From a virus: 20,294 nt of DNA. Each line of letters starts with the position of its first letter. Within the stretch, counting starts at the first letter, position 1. The position numbers and the translations under genes were made by a program. Shown here one piece after another: positions 4,827 to 20,294 of the stretch. The stretch covers positions 1 through 20,294 of IMG/VR virus record IMGVR_UViG_3300024520_000606; one strand, written 5' to 3'. The notes under the pieces were generated by a model. That model did not search any database and was not told the DNA's origin. It was given only the letters and a program-made list of their open reading frames with translations.

Positions 4827-5741
4827 TTATGCTGCTCCACCGTCTGTAATGCCGCCCCACTTAGCGATGAGGCTTGTTCGTGCTGCTTCGGCTGCTCCTC
4901 CCGATGTGTATTTACTGCCGCCAAAGTTTACTGTGCCCGAGTAAGACATTGCTCCTTGTGCATCCCAAGCAATTAGTAGAGCATCATAGTTAGCAGTTGA
5001 TAATGTTACATCACTCATAAAGTTTCCGAAAGCCGTAACCTGACCAACAACCCAACTGCTTATATCTTGGTCAAATAAATAGTTGCGAAAAAACATCACA
5101 AGCATATCTGTTATGTTTGACGTGTCCCAAGTCGATAAGTCTTGGTTAAAGTTGTAGCAATAAGCAAACATTCTCCTAGTGTTTGTGGCATTAGTCATGT
5201 CCCAAGTAGACAACGGCTGGTCAAATAAGTAGCACGTTTCAAAACAACCCGAATTGTTTCCACTTGACCCGAATATTTCAACGCTAGACACATCCCAATT
5301 TGAAATATCACCGTTGAATATGGAACATTTTGAGAAAGTATAAGCCAATGAAGTTGTGGAAATTATAGGTGCGTCAGTTGCTGAAATATTTAGATTCGAA
5401 CAACCGTAAAAAGTGCTGGTGTTCGCTATATCAAATGTTCCCCAATTGCTTACGTCTGTAATTTTCCGTCTATCACCAGAGTTTGCAAAACGAAAGGTGT
5501 TAATAGTTCCCGAAATGGTAACCGTATAAGTACCACCAGCGGCATAAGTATGTGTATTAGTTGTATCAATATTTCCATCGCCCCAATCAACAGTAGGTCC
5601 AGCAGTCATAGGTAATACAATAGTGTCACTTGCCGACCCAGCTTGAGTAGTGTCCCAAGTTGAAACAAAATCGGGATTAGGTGCAGCACCCCCACCGCCT
5701 CCGCGAATTGGTCGAAGTCCTATTTTAGAACTGCCTATCAT
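4827..5741 (-). CDS. PKD plus BspA-like (DUF285) repeat protein, putative receptor-binding tail protein
   Basis: The 304-residue protein has a short basic N-terminus with a Gly-rich linker (residues 14-18), then a PKD-like Ig fold with VDWGDGN (51-57) and TYTVTISG (71-78). A BspA/DUF285-type repeat region follows with units FNGDISNWDVS (142), FDQPLSTWD (173), FNQDLSTWDTS (198) and FDQDISSWVV (223). The C-terminus is a small Gly/Ala-rich domain. BspA repeats are known in bacterial surface adhesins, and PKD domains bind glycans or proteins. No signal peptide is present, consistent with a virion protein. Its four-base overlap with the gene upstream and its place after the head-tail connectors suggest a receptor-binding fibre; this is inference. 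Confidence 0.8.
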   Translation of the reverse strand: MIGSSKIGLRPIRGGGGGAAPNPDFVSTWDTTQAGSASDTIVLPMTAGPTVDWGDGNIDTTNTHTYAAGGTYTVTISGTINTFRFANSGDRRKITDVSNWGTFDIANTSTFYGCSNLNISATDAPIISTTSLAYTFSKCSIFNGDISNWDVSSVEIFGSSGNNSGCFETCYLFDQPLSTWDMTNATNTRRMFAYCYNFNQDLSTWDTSNITDMLVMFFRNYLFDQDISSWVVGQVTAFGNFMSDVTLSTANYDALLIAWDAQGAMSYSGTVNFGGSKYTSGGAAEAARTSLIAKWGGITDGGAA

Positions 5742-7018: not shown

Positions 7019-8860
7019 TTACTTCTTTATACGCATTAGTTTCTGTTTCCAATAATGGCGACAATGGTAAGACTTGCCCCAAAAGCCACCGCCTCGCATC
7101 CATACATTTCTGTTATTGCTCACTCCGATGTCTTGAATTTCGTCAAGTTGCCAAGACTTATTTTCTTCCTCCACCAATTTAACCAGCTTCCTACAAAAGT
7201 CTCGAGTCGTTGGAATAATAGAAGCACCACTTGCTTCGGGTCGCTTCTCATAAGTGTAACGAATAACGAACTCTTCCTCTACTGGTGGAATCTCTTTAAG
7301 TAATCGTTCGCCTTCTTTGGTAATGTTAACGACTCGTTGGCTAGAGTCTAGCACTTCGCCAATTTCCAACACAATAGCGTTCGCTTCATTCAGTACCTGA
7401 AGCCCAGCCATAACTCTTTCAATTGAAAGTTGTAACTGTTCTGCAATTGCTAAGAATGGAGTGGCTGGATTCTCTTTTAAGATGTTTAAGATAGCCGTGT
7501 CAATCGGGTTAACTTCTGCGAACCAATACTTTCTATTAAGTTCTTCGTGTAGCTTTGCGGAGGTCTCGCTTTCAAAGTTCAAAGCCTTACCGTTTCCGAC
7601 TGGTTCGTAGTCTGTTGAGCCGCAATTCTTGAAGTGTTCAATAATTAAGTCGTCCTCGTCTTTTGAAGTTTTAGCCGCTTCAAGTGGTTTTTCAAGTTTT
7701 GGAAGTCCGACCTTCTCGCGAATTTCTTCTTGAGTCATTACAGACGTAACGGTAGCCTCTGAGAACTGCACCGAAATCGGCTCAGTATCTTGAATGTAAA
7801 GACGGTTAGAAAGCCCTTGCAAAGAAGCTAGTTCGTTAAACACCCTTTCGATAAATTGTTGGCGGTTGTTTATATAAGTGTTTTGAAACAACTCAAACGA
7901 ATCGACTAATTGATTTCTTGAAGTGAAGATTCCGTCCTCCTTAATTCCGAATAAAGCTGGGTCAGTTACTTGGTGACCAGCGTAGATTTCTCTTTGTACC
8001 GTCTTGTTTAATATATCGAAACGCTTGTCGAAGTCGTTTCCGTTTAGTTGCTGAATTTCTACGCCTCGTTCTTTAGAATCTGCAAAGTTTAGAACAATCG
8101 AGTTAGCGTTATCAGTCCCCGAAAATTTGCTAACTATCTGATTTTCAATCTGTTCTTGCTCCTCAAGCGTAGGTTCGCCATTGTGAAAAGATACGATAGT
8201 CCCGCCAACAAATCCCGATTTACAACTATTGAGATGGAAATTCGCAATTTCAGTATCGAGTTCAATGTAAGAAGTAGAACCCAAATAAGTCGGTAGTGGG
8301 TAGTATTTGCAGTCAGGCGAATAACCTTTAACGTAAAGTAGTTGTTTGCCGCTTGGCTCTTTCCAATTAAACGCCTCAATCTTCTCAACAACGGGGTTAT
8401 GTTTGCTCCAGTCCTCCGAGTAGTAATAGCAAGAGCCGTCTTCGTTGCTACGGTAACGTGCGAAGTCAGCGTGATATACTGCCGCAATCTTGTCGTTTAG
8501 TTGGTTGTAAACTATCTCAATAGCAAAGCCGTTGTAAAGTTCGTAATCGAGTGCGACCTTTTCCAAGATGTCGTTAAGGCTCTCGTATTGGTTCGGATGG
8601 TTGATGAACTCTTGTAACTTGGCAAGTCCCATAGTGTCCAATCCTTCAGCGTTAACCGCCCAACCTTGACCAACTACATAATCTTTTTTAGAGTTGATTA
8701 TAGCGTGGTTCTTTGCGCTTCTGCGATAAAGGTCAAGCAAGTATTCAGGATAGCGGTTCTTGTATTCGCCTTCGTCTCCGAATAGAATCCAATCTTTGCC
8801 CCTTGCCTCCTTGAAGGTTGGCACTTTCTGAGTACCGAAATTTAAAACTTTAAGAGCCAT
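7019..8860 (-). CDS. Portal protein with C-terminal winged-helix-like and Cys/His extensions
   Basis: The 613-residue protein has a portal-type N-terminal region (about 1-350): KDWILFGDEGEYKNRYPEYL, AIINSKKDYVVGQG, a stem-like DKRFDILNKTVQREIYAGH and DPALFGIKEDGIFTSRNQLV. Portals form the dodecameric DNA channel at one capsid vertex. After a linker, residues 452-522 resemble a winged helix (IDTAILNILKENP, FLAIAEQLQLSIERVMAGLQ, a wing, then VNITKEGERLLKE). The last 85 residues carry TTRDFC556 and YHC600RH602YW, which recalls the C-terminal domain of minor head (Mu gpF/SPP1 gp7-like) proteins. So a portal and head-morphogenesis function may be fused. The ATG overlaps the upstream gene by 11 bases. 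Confidence 0.85.
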   Translation of the reverse strand: MALKVLNFGTQKVPTFKEARGKDWILFGDEGEYKNRYPEYLLDLYRRSAKNHAIINSKKDYVVGQGWAVNAEGLDTMGLAKLQEFINHPNQYESLNDILEKVALDYELYNGFAIEIVYNQLNDKIAAVYHADFARYRSNEDGSCYYYSEDWSKHNPVVEKIEAFNWKEPSGKQLLYVKGYSPDCKYYPLPTYLGSTSYIELDTEIANFHLNSCKSGFVGGTIVSFHNGEPTLEEQEQIENQIVSKFSGTDNANSIVLNFADSKERGVEIQQLNGNDFDKRFDILNKTVQREIYAGHQVTDPALFGIKEDGIFTSRNQLVDSFELFQNTYINNRQQFIERVFNELASLQGLSNRLYIQDTEPISVQFSEATVTSVMTQEEIREKVGLPKLEKPLEAAKTSKDEDDLIIEHFKNCGSTDYEPVGNGKALNFESETSAKLHEELNRKYWFAEVNPIDTAILNILKENPATPFLAIAEQLQLSIERVMAGLQVLNEANAIVLEIGEVLDSSQRVVNITKEGERLLKEIPPVEEEFVIRYTYEKRPEASGASIIPTTRDFCRKLVKLVEEENKSWQLDEIQDIGVSNNRNVWMRGGGFWGKSYHCRHYWKQKLMRIKK

Positions 8861-12011: not shown

Positions 12012-12043
12012 TTTGAATTGTGCCACTTAGATTCGTACCTTGT
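12012..12043 (+). promoter_or_regulatory. Weak candidate promoter for the plus-strand nuclease gene
   Basis: TTTG (12012-12015) is followed after 20 bases by TACCTTGT (12036-12043), which keeps only part of the TAnnTTTG -7 consensus. The ATG at 12047 is so close that the transcript would be nearly leaderless. The 65-base divergent gap (11982-12046) must hold any promoter for this gene, but the match is weak. Confidence 0.25.
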
Positions 12044-12046
12044 AAT

Positions 12047-12529
12047 ATGGTCGAGATAATTATAAGCGAAGAGCAAAGAAAAAGAGCGCAAGAACTTTAT
12101 GACTTTGACGAGTTGAACAACTCAATAAGTAAAGGCTGGAGTAACAAATTCGGAGCAATCGGAGAGGTGATAACTGCCGACTATTTTAAAGAAAGAAAGC
12201 GGTCTGTTGATACCAATTCAACTTACGATTTCGACCTAATTGTTGACGGTCATAAAATAGATGTGAAGTCTAAACAAACCAACGTAAAGCCGCAACCTCA
12301 TTATTTAGCAACGGTAGCCAATTTTAACACTACTCAACAATGCAACTTTTATCTATTCACTCGAATACTTAAAGACTTATCTAAAGGTTGGTTGCTTGGC
12401 TATATTAACCCGGTCAAGTTTTACGAACTTGCAGACTTTGTAAGCAAAGGAGACCTAGACGTTAACGGTTGGGTGTTTAAAGCCGACTGTTATAACCTAC
12501 AAATTAAAGACCTCAACCCTTTATTTTAG
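12047..12529 (+). CDS. PD-(D/E)XK nuclease-like protein on the opposite strand
   Basis: The only plus-strand gene. From the ATG at 12047 it gives 160 residues (MVEIIISEEQRKRAQEL); a GTG at 12020 would add nine. The core fits a restriction-endonuclease fold: E40 in a helix (FGAIGEVITADYF), D61/D63 in YDFDLIVDG, and I-D72-V-K74 in the next strand, the D-x-K pair of PD-(D/E)XK enzymes. A later strand-helix part (NFYLFTRILKD, GWLLGYINPVKFYELAD) resembles the domain seen in many uncharacterised phage nucleases. It sits between two head assembly genes, divergent from the scaffold-like gene and overlapping the protease gene's end by nine bases. It could be a homing-type, anti-host or superinfection-exclusion nuclease; target unknown. 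Confidence 0.8.
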   Translation: MVEIIISEEQRKRAQELYDFDELNNSISKGWSNKFGAIGEVITADYFKERKRSVDTNSTYDFDLIVDGHKIDVKSKQTNVKPQPHYLATVANFNTTQQCNFYLFTRILKDLSKGWLLGYINPVKFYELADFVSKGDLDVNGWVFKADCYNLQIKDLNPLF

Positions 12530-13078
12530 AGCCTTCTCGATTTCTTCTATAATCATTTTGTCAACGTCCATTTGTCGGGACTCGGAAAACACGCCCTCAA
12601 CGCTGAAGCCGTTAAACGTGCCGTCCTTTACTTGCGCCCAAACTTCATCGTTGTCAACCTTATAAGAAACGAACCAAGAGCCGTTCGGTGCTTTGTCGAA
12701 ACCTTTAGGCGTTGGCTTTGTATCGTCAATTAGAAAAGACTCAAACATAAACACCCCGTCCACTTCTGTCTCGTGGTCTAAGTTGGTCGCGTTTGTCTTG
12801 CCTTCCTTCATAAACTTGTAGGCAATCTTCCGAATTGAGTCAGCATCAAAGACTACATAGTACTCCCGTTCGTCCTCGTCCTTTCGGTAGATAGGGTAAT
12901 CGGCAGTCATACAAATTCCGCTTACTATTTTCTTCTCTTCGTTGAGTGCGAACTTTTGTTTTTTATTAAAAGCCATCCAGTTACGCTCTATGGCTGGACG
13001 GTCAACAAGTGAGATTGCATCAAGACCCGTGTCGTGGTCGTCATCAATTGTTAAATATATTACTGGTAGTTTTTCCAT
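12521..13078 (-). CDS. XkdF-type prohead serine protease
   Basis: The 185-residue protein matches the XkdF-like peptidase family (S78-type, herpes-protease-like fold) that cleaves scaffold and capsid subunits during head maturation. Visible features are the N-terminal GLDAISLVDRPAIERNWM, the segment IVSGICMTADYPIYR, FDADSIRKIAYKFMKEGKTN with the likely catalytic histidine in LDHE (H102), and NGSWFVSYKVDNDEVWAQV leading to the nucleophile in NGFSVEG (S159). The start overlaps the stop of the tape-measure-like gene by one base (TAATG). Its stop overlaps the convergent nuclease gene. The link to the downstream scaffold-like and capsid genes fits a prohead protease. Confidence 0.85.
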   Translation of the reverse strand: MEKLPVIYLTIDDDHDTGLDAISLVDRPAIERNWMAFNKKQKFALNEEKKIVSGICMTADYPIYRKDEDEREYYVVFDADSIRKIAYKFMKEGKTNATNLDHETEVDGVFMFESFLIDDTKPTPKGFDKAPNGSWFVSYKVDNDEVWAQVKDGTFNGFSVEGVFSESRQMDVDKMIIEEIEKALK

Positions 13079-14844
13079 TATCCGAAATTTGCTTGTGATT
13101 CTATTTGGTTTACGTTGTTCTGATTTCCCGTTACTTCTGTCTCCACGACAAACGCCTGAATTGGTGCGAGTTGTGCTTGGTCTGCTCCTCCGAGTTCTGT
13201 TGTGTTTGTTGAAACAGAATCTATACTTGGTGCAGATGATTGAGGAACGCTTGAAGAACTTGGGATTGATGGACTGCCCCCACCGGGAACGGTTGCTAAT
13301 ATAGTTCCGACTTGAGCCAACGAACCTAATACTGTCGCAATCATTGAAGCAATAAATATCGGAGTAGTTACTGGCGCGGCAACTCCAGTTTGAGCACCAG
13401 CCTGAGTACCTCCAGCTATTGCGGCAGATATAGCCTTTGCAGTATCAATCGCTACTTGAGCAACCGCAAACGCTTTTTGAATTGCAACCGCTTCTTTTGA
13501 TTGGTCTCCACTTAATGCTACTAATTGACCCAGCGAATCTAATACCGAACCAGCAACTGATAAACCAGCCTCTCTTGCCTTTGACTTATCTTTTTCCGCT
13601 TTTATAGTTGCCGCAACGTCCTCGTCTCGGAACTTCTTACGGAGTTTTGCGAGTGCATCTTGCTTTGCCCCTTCGATGTCGGTGGCGTTGTCTCCAGCCA
13701 GTCGGGCTTGTTCTTCAAGAGCCGCGTAATATTGTTCAAGTTCAAGGAGTTCAAGTTCTCGGTTTTCCTTCCCAACCTTTGCGAGTTCTGTTTGTAGGTC
13801 GAATAGTTCTTTTTCGAGTGCCTTCTCGTTTGTTAGTTGTTCCGACTTTTGCCCTCCGATTCTTTCCTCAATGTCAAAGAGTTCTGTCTTTGCATCTTTT
13901 AGCGCAACTTGTAGGTCGATGTTGTTTTTATCAAGTGCGAGTTCTTTTTCTGCTAACTCAATTCTCTTGTTTGCTATCGCAGTTTCTTCGGCTAATTGCT
14001 TTGCTTGGATTTCTCCGAGTTTCTCGTTAGCCGCTATTCTGTCAGCAAGTGTCTGAGATATATCGTCCCGAATTTGCCTTTGGTCTTCCGCTTCCTTTTG
14101 TCGTACTAAAATCAAAGCCCGTTGGTCGGCTTCCAGTAGCTTAACCTCATTGCGAAGTTTCACAAGTGCATCAGCTTGGTTAACTGCCGCTACCGTTGCT
14201 TCTTTTACGTCAACCGCAAAGTTTTTTAAGCCATCAACTGCCGCCGCTTGTTGAACCTCATCTAAGCCAGTAGCTACCTGAATAGTTGCCGTTGCAAAGT
14301 CTTTCCCGGCTTCTTTTATCGCGTCTAAGTCTCTATCGAAAACGCCTTGAATAATTGCGCCAAGTGCCGTAAACTGGTTGGCAAGTCCTTCTATTCTGTT
14401 TGCAATGTTTTCTTTTATCGCTTCCCAAAGGTCAAGAACCGCTTGTTTAGGGTCAGAGAAAGCCGCCTTCATCGGTTCGGCTAATGCCGTAACCCTTTCA
14501 AATAGTTTTTGAAAAAGAATCTGCAAAGCCGTTGTCGCAACATTAAAAGCGTCAAGAATAACTTGATTCTGCATTAACAACTCCTTGAGGAAAATAAAGA
14601 CCTCTGCCGCAATAGCAATAAGACCCAAAGACTTGAGAACTCCACCTATTGAAGTTCCAAAGCCTTTCATTCCTTTACTTGCTCCCTTTGCTCCTTTCTC
14701 TGCCGCATCGAAGCCAGTCTTCATTTCGTTGCTGAGTTTCTCCTGAGTCTGTTTTACTTTCTCAAGTTCTTCTCTTAACGCTATTATGTCGTCACTAGCT
14801 TCACCAGTTTTAACGTCTACCTCTATCGCAACCTTTGTAGCCAT
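13078..14844 (-). CDS. Tape-measure-like tail protein
   Basis: The 588-residue protein begins with MATKVAIEVDVKTGEASDDI, typical for tape measure proteins, then a coiled coil (21-50), a Gly/Lys-rich segment and a hydrophobic span at about 67-91 (GGVLKSLGLIAIAAEVFIFL). The middle (about 230-430) is a long charged coiled coil, followed by an Ala-rich hydrophobic region (about 455-535: AVAQVAIDTAKAISAAIAGG, FIASMIATVLGSLAQ) and a Ser/Gln-rich tail. Tape measures set tail length at roughly 1.5 angstrom per residue, which would give about 90 nm. The Ala-rich ending is common in Bacteroidota phage tape measures. It could alternatively be a different injected tail protein, since five genes separate it from the chaperone pair. 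Confidence 0.8.
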   Translation of the reverse strand: MATKVAIEVDVKTGEASDDIIALREELEKVKQTQEKLSNEMKTGFDAAEKGAKGASKGMKGFGTSIGGVLKSLGLIAIAAEVFIFLKELLMQNQVILDAFNVATTALQILFQKLFERVTALAEPMKAAFSDPKQAVLDLWEAIKENIANRIEGLANQFTALGAIIQGVFDRDLDAIKEAGKDFATATIQVATGLDEVQQAAAVDGLKNFAVDVKEATVAAVNQADALVKLRNEVKLLEADQRALILVRQKEAEDQRQIRDDISQTLADRIAANEKLGEIQAKQLAEETAIANKRIELAEKELALDKNNIDLQVALKDAKTELFDIEERIGGQKSEQLTNEKALEKELFDLQTELAKVGKENRELELLELEQYYAALEEQARLAGDNATDIEGAKQDALAKLRKKFRDEDVAATIKAEKDKSKAREAGLSVAGSVLDSLGQLVALSGDQSKEAVAIQKAFAVAQVAIDTAKAISAAIAGGTQAGAQTGVAAPVTTPIFIASMIATVLGSLAQVGTILATVPGGGSPSIPSSSSVPQSSAPSIDSVSTNTTELGGADQAQLAPIQAFVVETEVTGNQNNVNQIESQANFG

Positions 14845-14845
14845 C

Positions 14846-15421
14846 TTACAGATTTATGATTCGGTAAGTAACATAAACGGTCATGTCGCTATCTCCTGAG
14901 TCTGGGTCGCCACTTGCTACGGTTACATTAAGCGCGGCATTTTCAACTAACTGAGTTGCCGTTGCAGAGCCTAAAGTTGTGGCATCCGCAAACCGTCTTA
15001 TTGTTGATGCTGAGTTCTTAATAACAGTTGATGCTTGTGAGTCTGTCGCTCCAGCAGTTATCAATTCAAGAGTGGTATTTGTGGCGTAGGTAGCCGAATT
15101 GTAAACCATCTTCATTGAGGCACTTATAACCTCAATAGCGTAACCAGCCCCCGGAGCAGCAACTATCTCAATCGGTGTGGTGTTCAAGGTTAGAACGTCA
15201 GCCGTTGCAATGGTTAGTTTTGCAGTACCTTGAATGCACTCAATTCCTGAGTCGCCTCGTGTCCACAAAACCCCGTCCGCTTGGTTGTAAAAGAGTTCGC
15301 CCTTATAAATGTCCGTAGCTATCCAAGTGCCGTCCGTATGGTCGTTAGAACTTGGTACGGTTGGAACGGTTGAATTTACCGTTGACCGTTTTATTTTTAT
15401 TCTTGAGTCTTGTGTTGCCAT
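14846..15421 (-). CDS. Small tail-fibre-like structural protein
   Basis: A 191-residue protein whose first 65 residues (IKIKRSTVNSTVPTVPSS, then YKGELFYNQADGVLWTRGDS) resemble the collar-binding domain found at the start of many phage tail fibres, where a polar PT..GEL pattern precedes a short strand. The rest is a Thr/Ala-rich beta domain (AKLTIATADVLTLNTTPIEI, IEVISASMKMVYNS, MTVYVTYRIINL), probably a jelly-roll-like fold. It starts one base into the stop of the 905-residue tail protein gene and ends one base before the tape-measure-like gene. Likely a small fibre or tail tip component. Confidence 0.7.
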   Translation of the reverse strand: MATQDSRIKIKRSTVNSTVPTVPSSNDHTDGTWIATDIYKGELFYNQADGVLWTRGDSGIECIQGTAKLTIATADVLTLNTTPIEIVAAPGAGYAIEVISASMKMVYNSATYATNTTLELITAGATDSQASTVIKNSASTIRRFADATTLGSATATQLVENAALNVTVASGDPDSGDSDMTVYVTYRIINL

Positions 15422-18138
15422 TAGTTTTCTCCGCCTTCTATTAAGTAAATAGCTGAATCGCTGAATTGTGTCTGAACTATGTCCTCTCCACCGTCAACCG
15501 TGAAGATGTTTGTGCCTCCATATAACGCTCTCACCGTGTCCTCTCCTCCATCTAAGACATCTAAGTTGTCTTGAGGTTTTCCATTTACATAAACGGTATT
15601 GCTTTCTTGAATATGAACCCCGTTACTATTTATTAACTGGACGTTGTGAAGCCCAGCATCTACCTCGTTGTCATTTCCAAAGATGGTTACGTTTTTAGTG
15701 CCTCCTCCGACTACGTTATTATCACCCTGAATTATAAACTTAACAGAACCTTCCCCTACTCTATTGTTACGACCTTGAACAGAACCAGCAAAATCGGGAA
15801 AAATATTACTTGAGCGTTTTAACTGTTTAACATTGGGTAATTTAACCTTATTAAGACCGTCCTCAATAACACCATTTTTGCCAAGTTCTAAATGTGTTTC
15901 GCTAAAAGTTACGGGTTCTTTTATTTTAATCAATTCAACCTTTGTTAAACTCTCGTTAAACGGGTTGTAGTTCATTATTTTGTTAAGCCTCCAGTAAGCG
16001 TTATCAATAACTATTTGGTCTCTGAAGTCTAGCTTATTTATATCGGTTGGTTCAAGGTAGAACTGTGCCTTCATAACCTTGCTATCCTTATCGGTTATTT
16101 CAAGAAAATAATTTCTGTGATATAAGTTAAATAGGTTAGCATTGGTTACTTGTAACGCTCCAGTATATGAATTAGCAGAATATCTAAGTTCTCTAGTTAT
16201 TCCGAAGTTTATATCAAGGCTCGGTGTTAATGGATTGTCCCAATGTCCAGCGTAAGGATAAAAGGATTGAAGCGTATCAATTGCTATTGATGGTTGGTTC
16301 TGTCCTTGCTGTTGTTGATACCTGAAAACCCATTGCGGAGAACTAGGTAATAAGCCGCCCCAATAGAGAACCCTGATATTGTGTTCAGTTTGTTCTATGC
16401 CCTCTTGAATATCCTCTGCATAAATCCTTCCAATAATCCGATTGCTATCTCTATCGTTAACCAATACGGTTGGACTAAACTCTATCTCCAGTTCCTTATC
16501 CGATTGTGTAAAGTCGTTGTCAACATCAACTCTTACGTCACCGTAAACTCTTCCGTATTTGCCTTCGTATTTTGAGTTATCGTAATCGTCATCTGACTGA
16601 TAAGTATATACATATCTCTTATCTACAAGTACGCTCGTTGGTTCAAGTATTATATCCTTGTCCCTTGCTAATTTATACGTCCAATCCTTTGTTCCTCCAG
16701 CCGCGTAAAAGTCGTCTCTTGTTTCAATAAGAAGATTTCTCTCATTTTCAGGGTCTACCTCGATATACAGATTGAACATCTTAATAACAGAAAGTAATAA
16801 ATCAGTCATTCCTATACTTGGAACTAGCGCGTTCATTGGAATGGTTTGACCTTGAGTAATCTGCCCAGCATCTGCACCAGTTGCAGCTTGAATAAATCCT
16901 CCCGTTATATTCGTTTGATATTGAACCGGGTTAACGGAATAAGCATATACCTCCATGTATATCTTATCTCCTATGTCTAAGCGGATGGACGGAAGAAAGT
17001 AAGCAAATGTCTCGGTGTGTGTTGCGCCGACAGTATAAGTTCCATCTCCTTGAATCCAATGCTGAACATCTGATACCATTGATATTTGCCCCGTTGCCGC
17101 TTGGTATCTCTTGAACCTTACCCTAACCCAAAAAATATTGTTAAGAGGAGCAACTGGAATGACGGGAAACGGTTCGTTAGCTATTCTTTCTGTTTGCCAC
17201 GTTAGTTGAGAATTAAAAACATAGTAACCATCTTGAGGGACTGTATACTCGTCATTCACATTAGACCAATTGTTGAACGGGTCAACCAGTTGGGAAAACT
17301 CCACCCTCCAAGAGTCTTGATAGTTGCCGAATACTGGATAATTTGGGTAGAACTCGGAGTTAACATCTATGGTAGTTTGAACACTTGCCGATGTTTCTCT
17401 TCGGGCTATCTCGGAGTCACTAACAACAAAGCCCTCGTTTGTGAACGGTATGATTAACCTTTTAAAAAATGCGGAGGTTAAGAATGAACTACTATAAGAA
17501 AACTCAGAGAAGCTAAATATCCTATCAAGTATCTCGTATAAAAATAAAGCTGGTCTAAATTGCTCAAGTCTCCACGCGTTAATGCCTTGAACGGTAAACG
17601 GTTCGTTGACTCCATAATCAAGCATTGGGTATACATAACCCGACGTATTATTCCAGCTTGAAGTTACTCGTCCAAAATCCCAATTGTGGTCTAGGTCGCT
17701 AAAGTCAACATAAGGAAGTCCGTTATCGTCTAAGCCGTTTAGTTCTTTATCTCCAAGTACTGAGAAGATGTTGAGCAACTTACCGATAAACACCACCTCG
17801 TAAGTGTAGGCGTGTCCCTTTTGGATTATCTTTCTTAGCTGAACAACTCCAGCCATAACCTCCACCCCGTCCGCTATTACTCTCGCCTCCGCTTTCTTAT
17901 TAGGGTTAAAATTGACATCAATGTTAGAAGTGTTAGCATCGTAATTGTTGCTTATGTTAACGTCATAAATGTGTCCGAAGAGCGCATCGTTAGACTTTGT
18001 TGCTGGGCACTTTATCGTCTTACTGTATTCCGTGCTTCGCTTCTCAGGATTGCGAATGTCAGCAATCCCGTAATTAAACGAGAAATCAAAGCCCTCAAAC
18101 ACATCTAACCTTTTGCCTTCTATCCTAACCTCAACCAC
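15421..18138 (-). CDS. Large tail or baseplate protein with C-terminal repeat region
   Basis: The 905-residue protein, with a GTG start at 18138 overlapping the previous gene's stop, has an N-terminal domain (IRNPEKRSTEYSKTIKCPAT, LFGHIYDVNIS, FNPNKKAEARVI) that I recognise from distal tail or baseplate hub proteins of Bacteroidota phages. The centre is a series of beta-rich domains (Ig or jelly-roll-like). Residues about 780-860 look like a short beta helix with NN turns (GRNNRVGEGSVKFIIQGDNN, GNDNEV). The last 50 residues contain DGGED at 863, DGGED at 882 and EGGEN at 901, spaced exactly 19 residues. It is probably a tail tip or receptor-facing protein. Confidence 0.75.
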   Translation of the reverse strand: MVEVRIEGKRLDVFEGFDFSFNYGIADIRNPEKRSTEYSKTIKCPATKSNDALFGHIYDVNISNNYDANTSNIDVNFNPNKKAEARVIADGVEVMAGVVQLRKIIQKGHAYTYEVVFIGKLLNIFSVLGDKELNGLDDNGLPYVDFSDLDHNWDFGRVTSSWNNTSGYVYPMLDYGVNEPFTVQGINAWRLEQFRPALFLYEILDRIFSFSEFSYSSSFLTSAFFKRLIIPFTNEGFVVSDSEIARRETSASVQTTIDVNSEFYPNYPVFGNYQDSWRVEFSQLVDPFNNWSNVNDEYTVPQDGYYVFNSQLTWQTERIANEPFPVIPVAPLNNIFWVRVRFKRYQAATGQISMVSDVQHWIQGDGTYTVGATHTETFAYFLPSIRLDIGDKIYMEVYAYSVNPVQYQTNITGGFIQAATGADAGQITQGQTIPMNALVPSIGMTDLLLSVIKMFNLYIEVDPENERNLLIETRDDFYAAGGTKDWTYKLARDKDIILEPTSVLVDKRYVYTYQSDDDYDNSKYEGKYGRVYGDVRVDVDNDFTQSDKELEIEFSPTVLVNDRDSNRIIGRIYAEDIQEGIEQTEHNIRVLYWGGLLPSSPQWVFRYQQQQGQNQPSIAIDTLQSFYPYAGHWDNPLTPSLDINFGITRELRYSANSYTGALQVTNANLFNLYHRNYFLEITDKDSKVMKAQFYLEPTDINKLDFRDQIVIDNAYWRLNKIMNYNPFNESLTKVELIKIKEPVTFSETHLELGKNGVIEDGLNKVKLPNVKQLKRSSNIFPDFAGSVQGRNNRVGEGSVKFIIQGDNNVVGGGTKNVTIFGNDNEVDAGLHNVQLINSNGVHIQESNTVYVNGKPQDNLDVLDGGEDTVRALYGGTNIFTVDGGEDIVQTQFSDSAIYLIEGGEN

Positions 18139-19432
18139 GTTGTCTCCTATTTTTAATTGAATAGCTTAACTCAAAAGTGTACTGCATTAGCTTATCATTT
18201 AGAGAAGTCTTTTTAACGATATTTCTCTGGTTTAGATTAACCGATATAAACTCGTTGCTATCATTTTCAATGTAGATATTGGGCGAAGTAACTAGGTCTT
18301 CCATCCATTCACTCTCCTCTTCGGTTAGGTAATTAGAGTTTATGGTAACCTTCTCCATTAGTTCCACGTTGTAAGTAGTCGTTCCCCTTGACTTCTTTTG
18401 GTAGTCGTAAGAATTAATTCCAAGCGTGTTAGTTTGCTGGTCGTACTTGTCCTTTTTTACGTCTATCTTCTCTATCGACTTCATATTAAAGTTGTGCGAA
18501 TCAAAACCACCTAAACGGTTGAGCCAAGCTACCCGGATTGGAGCGTACTTTGAACATTCTTGTTCTATGTTAAAAGTGAATTTTTCACTCGTCAATGCGT
18601 TGGTGTTATCTCTCAACTGAATAGTGTAACTAGCAGCACCTACTAAAATAGTCGAAGGTGTTATCGATACGGTCGGGGCAAGTGGCAACATATTAGCCGC
18701 ATCAAGCGTTACAATGTCAAGAGTTCCAACTGGAATGCGGAAATATCTCTTATCCCAAGTAGGGTTGGTTGATAGGTCGTTTGTTACTAACGCAGAGTTT
18801 AAAAGAGAACCTGAAGCGTTGTAACCCGAATACGCTTTTATGGCATAACTGTTTGCGCTAAACCTTTCCGTTAGTATAAACGAAAGAGCGTAGTGCTGAG
18901 ATGAATCTATCTTAATCGTTCTCGGTGAATCAGTTAGGAACTTATGAGCAGTTGAGAAGCCATCTATTTGGTAATCAGTATAATCAAAGTCTAGCCAATC
19001 TATCTCGTTTCTAACTCCATTCCAAACGCTTTTAATATCAGTAAAGATAGACTCGTTTTCGTGGTAAACGCCTTGTGCATCTTTGTCCTCCTCAGTTATT
19101 TTAAGGTAGTATTCCTTGTGGTTTGTGTTATCGTAAAAGAATCCTTCCGTGCTTGTTGCGCCTATATCCACAACCCCTTCAAGATACGACTGCAAGAATC
19201 TCGATGGGTCGAAGAAAGCACTAACCGCAAAGGTCGGAAGAAGTGAACCGCTTTCACCTTGCACGGGGTAAACTCTTACTGTTCCAATCTTCGGTTCTGA
19301 CGGGTAAGTTTCGGGCAGAATGTCAATCTTGAACCGTACTGTCGGAGTTAAGTTTGTAGTCTTAATAACGTAAGCGTTATCGTTGAAAGCTAACCCGTAC
19401 TGCTCAGGCTCTTGCGTTAAATAAATAGCCAT
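18131..19432 (-). CDS. Tail structural protein (distal tail-like)
   Basis: The 433-residue protein starts MAIYLTQEPEQYGLAFNDNA and is beta-rich: YVIKTTNLTPTVRFKIDILP, FFDPSRFLQSYL, a domain with HYALSFILTERFSANSYA, and a C-terminal region (GTTTYNVELMEKVTINSNYL, EEESEWMEDLVTSPNIYIEN, LMQYTFELSYSIKNRRQRG). The last part recalls a family found before baseplate genes in Bacteroidota phages. Its start overlaps the upstream stop by one base. Together with the 905-residue protein it probably forms the tail tip. Role inferred from order and fold type. Confidence 0.7.
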   Translation of the reverse strand: MAIYLTQEPEQYGLAFNDNAYVIKTTNLTPTVRFKIDILPETYPSEPKIGTVRVYPVQGESGSLLPTFAVSAFFDPSRFLQSYLEGVVDIGATSTEGFFYDNTNHKEYYLKITEEDKDAQGVYHENESIFTDIKSVWNGVRNEIDWLDFDYTDYQIDGFSTAHKFLTDSPRTIKIDSSQHYALSFILTERFSANSYAIKAYSGYNASGSLLNSALVTNDLSTNPTWDKRYFRIPVGTLDIVTLDAANMLPLAPTVSITPSTILVGAASYTIQLRDNTNALTSEKFTFNIEQECSKYAPIRVAWLNRLGGFDSHNFNMKSIEKIDVKKDKYDQQTNTLGINSYDYQKKSRGTTTYNVELMEKVTINSNYLTEEESEWMEDLVTSPNIYIENDSNEFISVNLNQRNIVKKTSLNDKLMQYTFELSYSIKNRRQRG

Positions 19433-19971
19433 TATCCTTCTATAATTCTTTTGATTTCTTCGAATGTTATTTCTATATCTTCAGCTATTGCCGCCTCGAC
19501 TATTCCGCCAACCTTGCTCATCATTTTGTCAGTAGCTGGTTTAATCCACTTCTTGCCCTTGTAACCTTTCTTAGCTATGTTCCTTCCGATAACCGTAGCT
19601 AACGCCCATCTGTGACCGTCCTCAAGTTGTTTATCTGAACCCATAAGCCTAGACAAAGTGTTTGGGTAAGTTAGCCAACCCATAGCTATTGCGTTTCTTA
19701 TTTTCTTCGGGTCGCCTCCCGGTCCGCGTCCTCTGTCAAGAATTAAACCGTAACCCTCCATTTTTATCTGCATTCGATAGATTTGCCCGAATACTTTAAC
19801 CTTTGGTTGTACCTCAATCTTCAAAGACTCGCCTAATTTACCTGAAGAAGTATGTCCTTGACCTTGCCCTTCGCTTCCAGCACTTGAGCCTCCATTAAGT
19901 GAAAGGTTTAATTCGCTTACATATTCCGCTCGGAACTCGTTAAGAGCATCTATCAGTTTATCGAATGCCAT
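19432..19971 (-). CDS. Putative tail completion (HK97 gp10-like) protein
   Basis: A 179-residue basic protein. It has an N-terminal helix (MAFDKLIDALNEFRAEYVSE), a Gly/Ser-rich loop, a SGKLGESLKIEVQPKVKVFG stretch, then IKMEGYGLILDRGRGPGGDP, a helix with RWALATVIGRNIAKKGYKGK and KWIKPA. SGxLxxS...Y...l..GRGPG...WIxxA is a pattern of HK97 gp10-like and related neck proteins. The ATG at 19971 lies inside the end of the frameshifted chaperone frame (14-base overlap). Family assignment is moderate. Confidence 0.7.
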   Translation of the reverse strand: MAFDKLIDALNEFRAEYVSELNLSLNGGSSAGSEGQGQGHTSSGKLGESLKIEVQPKVKVFGQIYRMQIKMEGYGLILDRGRGPGGDPKKIRNAIAMGWLTYPNTLSRLMGSDKQLEDGHRWALATVIGRNIAKKGYKGKKWIKPATDKMMSKVGGIVEAAIAEDIEITFEEIKRIIEG

Positions 19972-20294
19972 TTTGCTTCTGTTGGTGATATTCGTGAGAT
20001 TGCTTCGCCTTTTGAAAACTAATAAGGTTCAAGAACTCCCGAAGCGGAAGCGCAAAGAAATAACCCCACTTTGTCGCATCGTTATTTGATAGATTGTTAA
20101 CCACGTTTAACCATCCGTATTTTGTTTCAAACGTCTCAACTTTCTTTCCGCTTGTTTCTTTATCTTCTCCGCTTTCCGCACCGAAGATTCCAGTATATGT
20201 TTTGCGGACATTAGATAACTGCTCAAAAAAAAAGCGGACAAAGGTTGTACGATTGTCATAGGTGCTTGAAGCATTGCCTCAGCTACCTCCTTGT
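19958..20294 (-). CDS. Tail assembly chaperone, -1 frameshift product (GT-like), 5' end outside the window
   Basis: The upstream part is read in the 0 frame (KEVAEAMLQAPMTIVQPLSA) up to the T9 run, then in the -1 frame from 20224 to the stop at 19958-19960, adding about 88 residues (FEQLSNVRKTYTGIFGAE, KYGWLNVVNNLSNNDATKWG, FALPLREFLNLISFQK). The -1 frame has a stop at 20279-20281 and no start codon before the slip site, so it cannot be a stand-alone gene of this length. The WLxxxxxLxNxDxxKWxxxxxLPLREFLxxL pattern resembles the T part of gpG/gpGT chaperones, which use -1 frameshifts. Inference from sequence and position. Confidence 0.65.
20107..20294 (-). CDS. Tail assembly chaperone, 0-frame (G-like) product, 5' end outside the window
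   Basis: The 0 frame is open from the window edge to TAA at 20107-20109. Without slipping, ribosomes read past the T9 run for another 39 codons, giving a strongly basic end (ESSVRKAEKIKKQAERKLR, then RLKQNTDG). This would be the G-like form, normally the more abundant of the two. The basic tail could be a by-product of the frame or could have a role. Confidence 0.55.
   Translation of the reverse strand, partial: KEVAEAMLQAPMTIVQPLSAFFLSSYLMSAKHILESSVRKAEKIKKQAERKLRRLKQNTDG
20224..20233 (-). promoter_or_regulatory. Candidate -1 ribosomal slippery site (T TTT TTG)
   Basis: On the minus strand nine T and a G give the 0-frame codons GCT TTT TTT TTG. The last seven bases (20230-20224) are T TTT TTG, a canonical X XXY YYZ heptamer in the right phase for a -1 shift into the GAG-led frame that encodes the T-like part. 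Confidence 0.65.

Follow-up and report, generated by a model that had tools for sequence, protein, structure and literature searches.

Near the right end of this viral contig, on the minus strand, two reading frames overlap at a run of thymines, which raises the question of whether they belong to one gene expressed as two proteins, by what kind of slippage the frames are joined, and what the products do. The window is the entire IMG/VR contig of 20,294 bases. A sequence-only reading had proposed that a programmed -1 frameshift links the two halves of a tail assembly chaperone at this site. The features of the junction are as follows.

20225..20233, minus strand: T9 slippery run, in the phase GCT TTT TTT TTG (A9 on the plus strand)
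20107..20292, minus strand: 0-frame ORF of the short product, its 5' part cut by the contig end, with a basic helix at its end
19958..20233, minus strand: -1 frame extension of the long product, with a coding pattern of substitutions

Of the N part, the window contains only some 20 codons, compared with 164 codons ahead of the slip in relatives. The 0 frame stops at 20107-20109, 39 codons past the slip, and its terminal residues are KKQAERKLRRLKQNTDG. The -1 frame is read from 20233 to 19961, comprising 91 codons including FFF and thus 88 new ones, and stops at 19958-19960. The overlap of the two frames at T9 and the counts of 39 codons and 88 residues were re-derived from the window sequence and agree with the sequence-only reading. 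Two in-phase heptamers are contained in the run, T_TTT_TTT and, right after it, T_TTT_TTG. The heptamer originally named, T_TTT_TTG, is present and in phase, but T_TTT_TTT alone is kept in relatives, and the slippery heptamer is most likely T_TTT_TTT. Another homopolymer junction, with A9 (minus strand) at 1736-1744, is found close to where an ORF of 63 aa (1720-1911) has its 3' end and just before the ATG of the next ORF at 1726.

Viral contigs were scanned with the -1 product, and all 63 relatives retrieved carry T9 (63/63). Profile scans added further viral groups, down to about 27% identity, all with T9 and all -1. After removal of duplicates, 118 of 118 distinct viral junctions from IMG/VR relatives have exactly nine T and the same -1 direction, a conservation count that, like the others across relatives, ignores phylogeny. 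Identity of the -1 extension drops to about 25% while T9 stays fixed. The codon phase is divided, with 55 junctions in one phase and 63 in another offset by one base; the two phases are GCT TTT TTT TTN and xTT TTT TTT TGC, and both hold an in-phase T_TTT_TTT. In 320 kb of the relatives' loci, 70 T9 runs were counted against 4 T8 and 14 T7, indicating that T9 at the junction is more than chance, and 63 of these 70 T9 are the junction site. Independent contigs stand in here for read-level support of the run length. The gene, with T9 and the -1 direction, is likewise found in two cultured Nonlabens (Persicivirga) phages, P12024S and P12024L; the run is located at 23578-23586 in P12024S. Flavobacterium phage 6H, a fold relative, was left out, its junction being unclear with a possible indel.

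The -1 frame had been described as lacking a start codon of its own, and this is borne out. No ATG, GTG or TTG occurs in the window between the last -1 frame stop and T9. A start codon before the run is absent in 106 of the 118 viral junctions, and those in the remainder are not conserved. An independent start for the -1 frame was thus rejected. Collectively, there is strong support for a programmed -1 frame change that joins the two halves of a single gene.

Substitution patterns bear on whether both frames are used. In the -1 frame after the 0-frame stop, variable sites number 17/4/42 at codon positions 1/2/3 (approximately 50 sites each), and a second well-sampled group gives 14/7/39. By this pattern, the -1 frame is evolving as a protein. 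Within the overlap, variability at -1 third positions falls to 20/38 and 21/37 in the two groups (Fisher p 0.002 and 0.014), which indicates that the 0-frame tail is constrained as well. Since both frames are constrained in the overlap, both products, including the basic 0-frame tail, are probably used and not noise. The 39-codon 0-frame tail with its basic end, which had been remarked on as unusual, is therefore real and itself under constraint. In the L054-L064 subgroup, the 0-frame tail is 84-85 codons long compared with about 42, nearly equal to the -1 extension.

The gene was also retrieved from Bacteroidota prophages. A genome scan identified it in a Hymenobacter pini prophage with T9 and the -1 direction; this locus has 62% GC, and its T9 is the sole A/T run of at least 7 in 12 kb. 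Profile searches identified the gene in 13 of 204 genomes of the Hymenobacter family, 5 of 291 genomes of the order of the Hymenobacter genome, 6 of 395 genomes of a phylum sample (the H. pini genome being one), and 58 of 300 genomes of another Bacteroidota order, that of genome G592. Within the Hymenobacter family, every copy with two intact frames has T9. Thirty loci from the order of G592 (L350-L379, some being re-fetched copies of genomes from the earlier profile search) comprise 24 T7, 2 T8 and 4 T9, and three loci of the other order (L382-L384) have T9, T7 and T9. Combined, these 33 prophage loci contain T7 in 25, T8 in 2 and T9 in 6, with a single phase and all -1, and an in-phase T_TTT_TTT is found at the same aligned place in 33/33, at run lengths from 7 to 9.

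A few prophage copies depart from this arrangement and bear on another explanation, namely that what looks like two frames reflects a decayed gene or an artefact of sequencing or assembly, and that the true gene is single-frame. The prophage L335 (genome G024) has ten T and one open frame of 267 codons, which may be a real variant, a phase change or a homopolymer error. L336 has T8 and is decayed, and L339/L344 and L343 are broken or partial. Two broken prophage copies besides L335 count on the side of an artefact, as does contig L002 with an additional base upstream. Runs of eight or ten T restoring a single frame had been named beforehand as evidence against a frameshift; T10 with a single frame does occur in L335 and T8 in the decayed L336, whereas the viral relatives hold T9 without exception. 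Against an artefact, nine T recur in metagenomes independent of one another, in both cultured phages and across several lineages of prophages, seven T elsewhere preserves the phase, and purifying selection acts on both frames. An artefactual origin is accordingly regarded as highly improbable. For the family, a single-frame gene with a sequencing error was rejected, the two-frame arrangement being conserved.

How the frame is changed is less certain. Ribosomal -1 slippage is favored because T_TTT_TTT is invariant in the intact two-frame groups while the run length varies in prophages, and because the uniform -1 direction, under the direction rule of Antonov et al. (PMC3711429), suggests ribosomal frameshifting. 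On these grounds, ribosomal slippage is quite probable for the window contig. Transcriptional slippage would instead have RNA polymerase add an extra U at T9, so that U10 messages yield the long protein by ordinary translation; on this explanation, it would replace or supplement ribosomal slippage in the T9-only phage lineages. Several observations are consistent with it. The run length is nine in all viral relatives although the codon phase differs. In the xTT TTT TTT TGC phase, a C in place of the eighth T would leave the products of both frames unchanged, yet none was observed; in the GCT TTT TTT TTN phase, the run is followed by G, A or C and in no case by T. According to Baranov et al. 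(PMC1088944), a run of nine whose length is conserved marks purposeful slippage, and Shigella mxiE, which slips at a T run likewise, provides a transcriptional precedent. No other stimulator is visible in the window's lineages.

Other observations argue against transcriptional slippage. The aligned site in prophages of another order is mostly T7 or T8, and T7 falls below the usual run-length threshold for transcriptional slippage, 9 bases (PMC1088944). Every intact two-frame relative is -1, to which the rule of Antonov et al. (PMC3711429) again applies. Both shift directions among orthologues, an mxiE-like trait, were not found, and the lone T8 in the Hymenobacter family is decayed. Any T9 includes an in-phase T_TTT_TTT, so that its presence does not discriminate between ribosome and polymerase. 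Weighing both sides, transcriptional slippage is considered possible but on the whole unlikely. Rather unlikely, too, is a divided scheme in which the forms of the tail assembly chaperone would be set by polymerase slippage in the T9-only phages and by the ribosome with an upstream stimulator in the T7 prophages; if true, a single gene family would use both slippage mechanisms.

The candidate stimulator is GTAACGGAGGC, located approximately 19 bases upstream of the run and conserved at the nucleotide level in the T7 prophages of L350-L379. Within it, GTA and GAG are fixed and the Thr codon is ACG in 25/25, compared with 20% elsewhere. It is absent from most T9 members, and the association of T7 with GGAGG gave a Fisher p of 1.5e-4 from a 2x2 table that was tallied by eye and ignores relatedness. 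Bacteroidia ribosomes sequester the anti-Shine-Dalgarno and do not recognize Shine-Dalgarno sequences (PMC9976891), a point that also counts on the side of transcriptional slippage. Because of this sequestration and the long spacing, a role of GTAACGGAGGC as a Shine-Dalgarno-like stimulator is doubtful. In the window's lineages, there is no Shine-Dalgarno-like element near the run, no excess synonymous conservation at the junction, and no flanking hairpin more stable than shuffles. A search of window positions 18800-20294 gave no Rfam match.

The gene neighborhood was then considered with regard to function. The genes downstream of the frameshift gene are as follows.

19432..19971, minus strand: following gene, 179 aa, unnamed; its position alone suggests a neck/tail-completion-like product
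18131..19432, minus strand: 433-aa protein, probable tail protein by synteny
15421..18138, minus strand: 905-aa protein, probable tail protein (phrog_38559, E 1.7e-12; synteny)
14846..15421, minus strand: 191-aa protein of the same module by synteny
13078..14844, minus strand: 588-aa tape-measure-like protein, encoded by the fifth gene after the frameshift gene

The 179-aa gene starts before the -1 ORF has ended, its ATG giving an overlap of 14 bases, and its product has no Pfam or PHROG match. The 588-aa protein matches phrog_9483 (tail length tape measure, E 8e-5) and phrog_21537 (virion structural protein, E 8.5e-21), and its gene is syntenic in relatives. Three full-length IMG/VR relatives and P12024S share the order TerL, frameshift gene, short neck/tail-like gene, two long tail proteins and tape-measure-like gene. 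Four genes separate the frameshift gene from the tape-measure-like gene in the window, and three to four do so in the mapped IMG/VR relatives. The distance of five genes, also noted as unusual in the sequence-only reading, is thus real and a conserved feature of the group. Protease and capsid genes come right after the tape-measure-like gene in the IMG/VR relatives; the P12024S record begins at the protease-like gene.

Some other genes in the window are also worth recording. At 12020-12529 on the plus strand, a lone opposite-strand ORF of 169 aa interrupts the structural operon between the scaffold-like and protease genes; it has no Pfam match, appears nuclease-like by eye, and is absent from the syntenic interval of relative G001. 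A portal-like protein of 613 aa (7019-8860) has a C-terminal winged-helix (HTH_24/AsnC-type, residues ~451-485), which is unusual for a portal. A 304-aa protein with DUF285 repeats (4827-5741) is possibly a receptor-binding or decoration protein.

By sequence, no named chaperone family matched the frameshift gene product significantly, there was no Pfam chaperone match, and profile searches of PDB sequences gave no match. The AlphaFold2 model of the N part has a pLDDT of 87. Compared with the PDB, its VIA top chain is 2ob9, the HK97 tail assembly chaperone, a weak match (Z 3.5, 64 residues) whose Foldseek E is 3.2; a Z under 8 may reflect merely a common arrangement. The close BFVD neighbors of this model are uncharacterized Caudovirales proteins, one neighbor being named tail assembly chaperone (E 0.04). 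When the -1 extension was folded by itself, the model was weak (pLDDT 71) and yielded no useful match. Given the architecture, the position in the tail module and the weak 2ob9 match, a gpG/gpGT-like role explains the gene best, and on these three points the proposed identity as a tail assembly chaperone is likely.

The frameshift could also be real and the pair be another two-form morphogenesis protein of the packaging or neck region by the terminase. The gene adjoins TerL, ahead of the neck/tail genes, and known chaperones show no significant match beyond the weak fold match, both of which speak for this assignment. The -1 two-product architecture near the start of the tail gene module points the other way, as do the HK97 chaperone as top, though weak, fold match and the BFVD neighbor annotated as tail assembly chaperone. 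In an unsystematic look, the same arrangement was seen in no other gene of the full-length relatives. This assignment is judged unlikely.

Taken as a whole, a two-protein gene with a ribosomal -1 slip and a gpG/gpGT-like tail role is the probable reading. Most ribosomes would stay in the 0 frame and produce a short protein of approximately 205 aa, consisting of the N domain and a basic tail of about 40 residues. A minority would shift back by one base at the U run, most likely a ribosomal event in which two tRNA-Phe re-pair on U_UUU_UUU, and produce a long protein of approximately 256 aa that retains the N domain and ends in a different, conserved C-terminal domain. The ratio of short to long product would follow the slip frequency. 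By analogy with lambda gpG/gpGT, tail assembly would have the tape measure protein coated by the shared domain and the tail tube subunit recruited by the frameshift domain. From sequence, we infer the ribosomal rather than transcriptional nature of the slip, the product ratio and the chaperone function.

Two products made by -1 slippage are already known from other tailed phages. An open-licence literature search found no earlier description of this protein family, and it appears that neither the family nor its precise slippery site or broad distribution has been reported before. The analysis provides a probable identity and a programmed frameshift for a gene that is widespread in phages and prophages of Bacteroidota, the phage of this window included, and mostly lacks annotation. 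Gene finders overlook or split the long product; in P12024S, for example, P12024S_39 is part of the -1 extension that is annotated as a gene of its own, starting at an internal ATG. Natural pairs, T7 with the upstream element and T9 without it, offer frameshift tests on ribosomes with a sequestered anti-Shine-Dalgarno and are also useful for separating ribosomal from polymerase slippage.

Among the closest known systems, PHROG 32199 / P12024S_38 is a homologous 0-frame protein with the same T9 and the same -1 extension, which is annotated as hypothetical with unknown function and without the frameshift. Shigella mxiE resembles the present gene in that a T run links overlapping frames, with an insertion leading to the longer product; unlike mxiE, the T7 relatives of the present gene hold the in-phase heptamer and the direction. 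In lambda, gpG/gpGT are two products of one gene, made by a -1 shift near its 3' end (PMC5009743). The present gene has in common with gpG/gpGT a shared N domain and a separate domain that extends the long form (PMC5009743), as well as overlapping frames and a -1 shift at an in-phase heptamer conserved among relatives. It differs in that no sequence homology to gpG/gpGT or HK97 was found and T_TTT_TTT replaces the lambda heptamer. The N domain is longer (164 codons) than in lambda and the 0-frame tail is long and under selection. Whereas the typical place of such a gene is directly before the tape measure gene, the present gene adjoins TerL. By analogy, the gene most likely works like gpG/gpGT, and it is compared with that system here rather than filed as a member of it.
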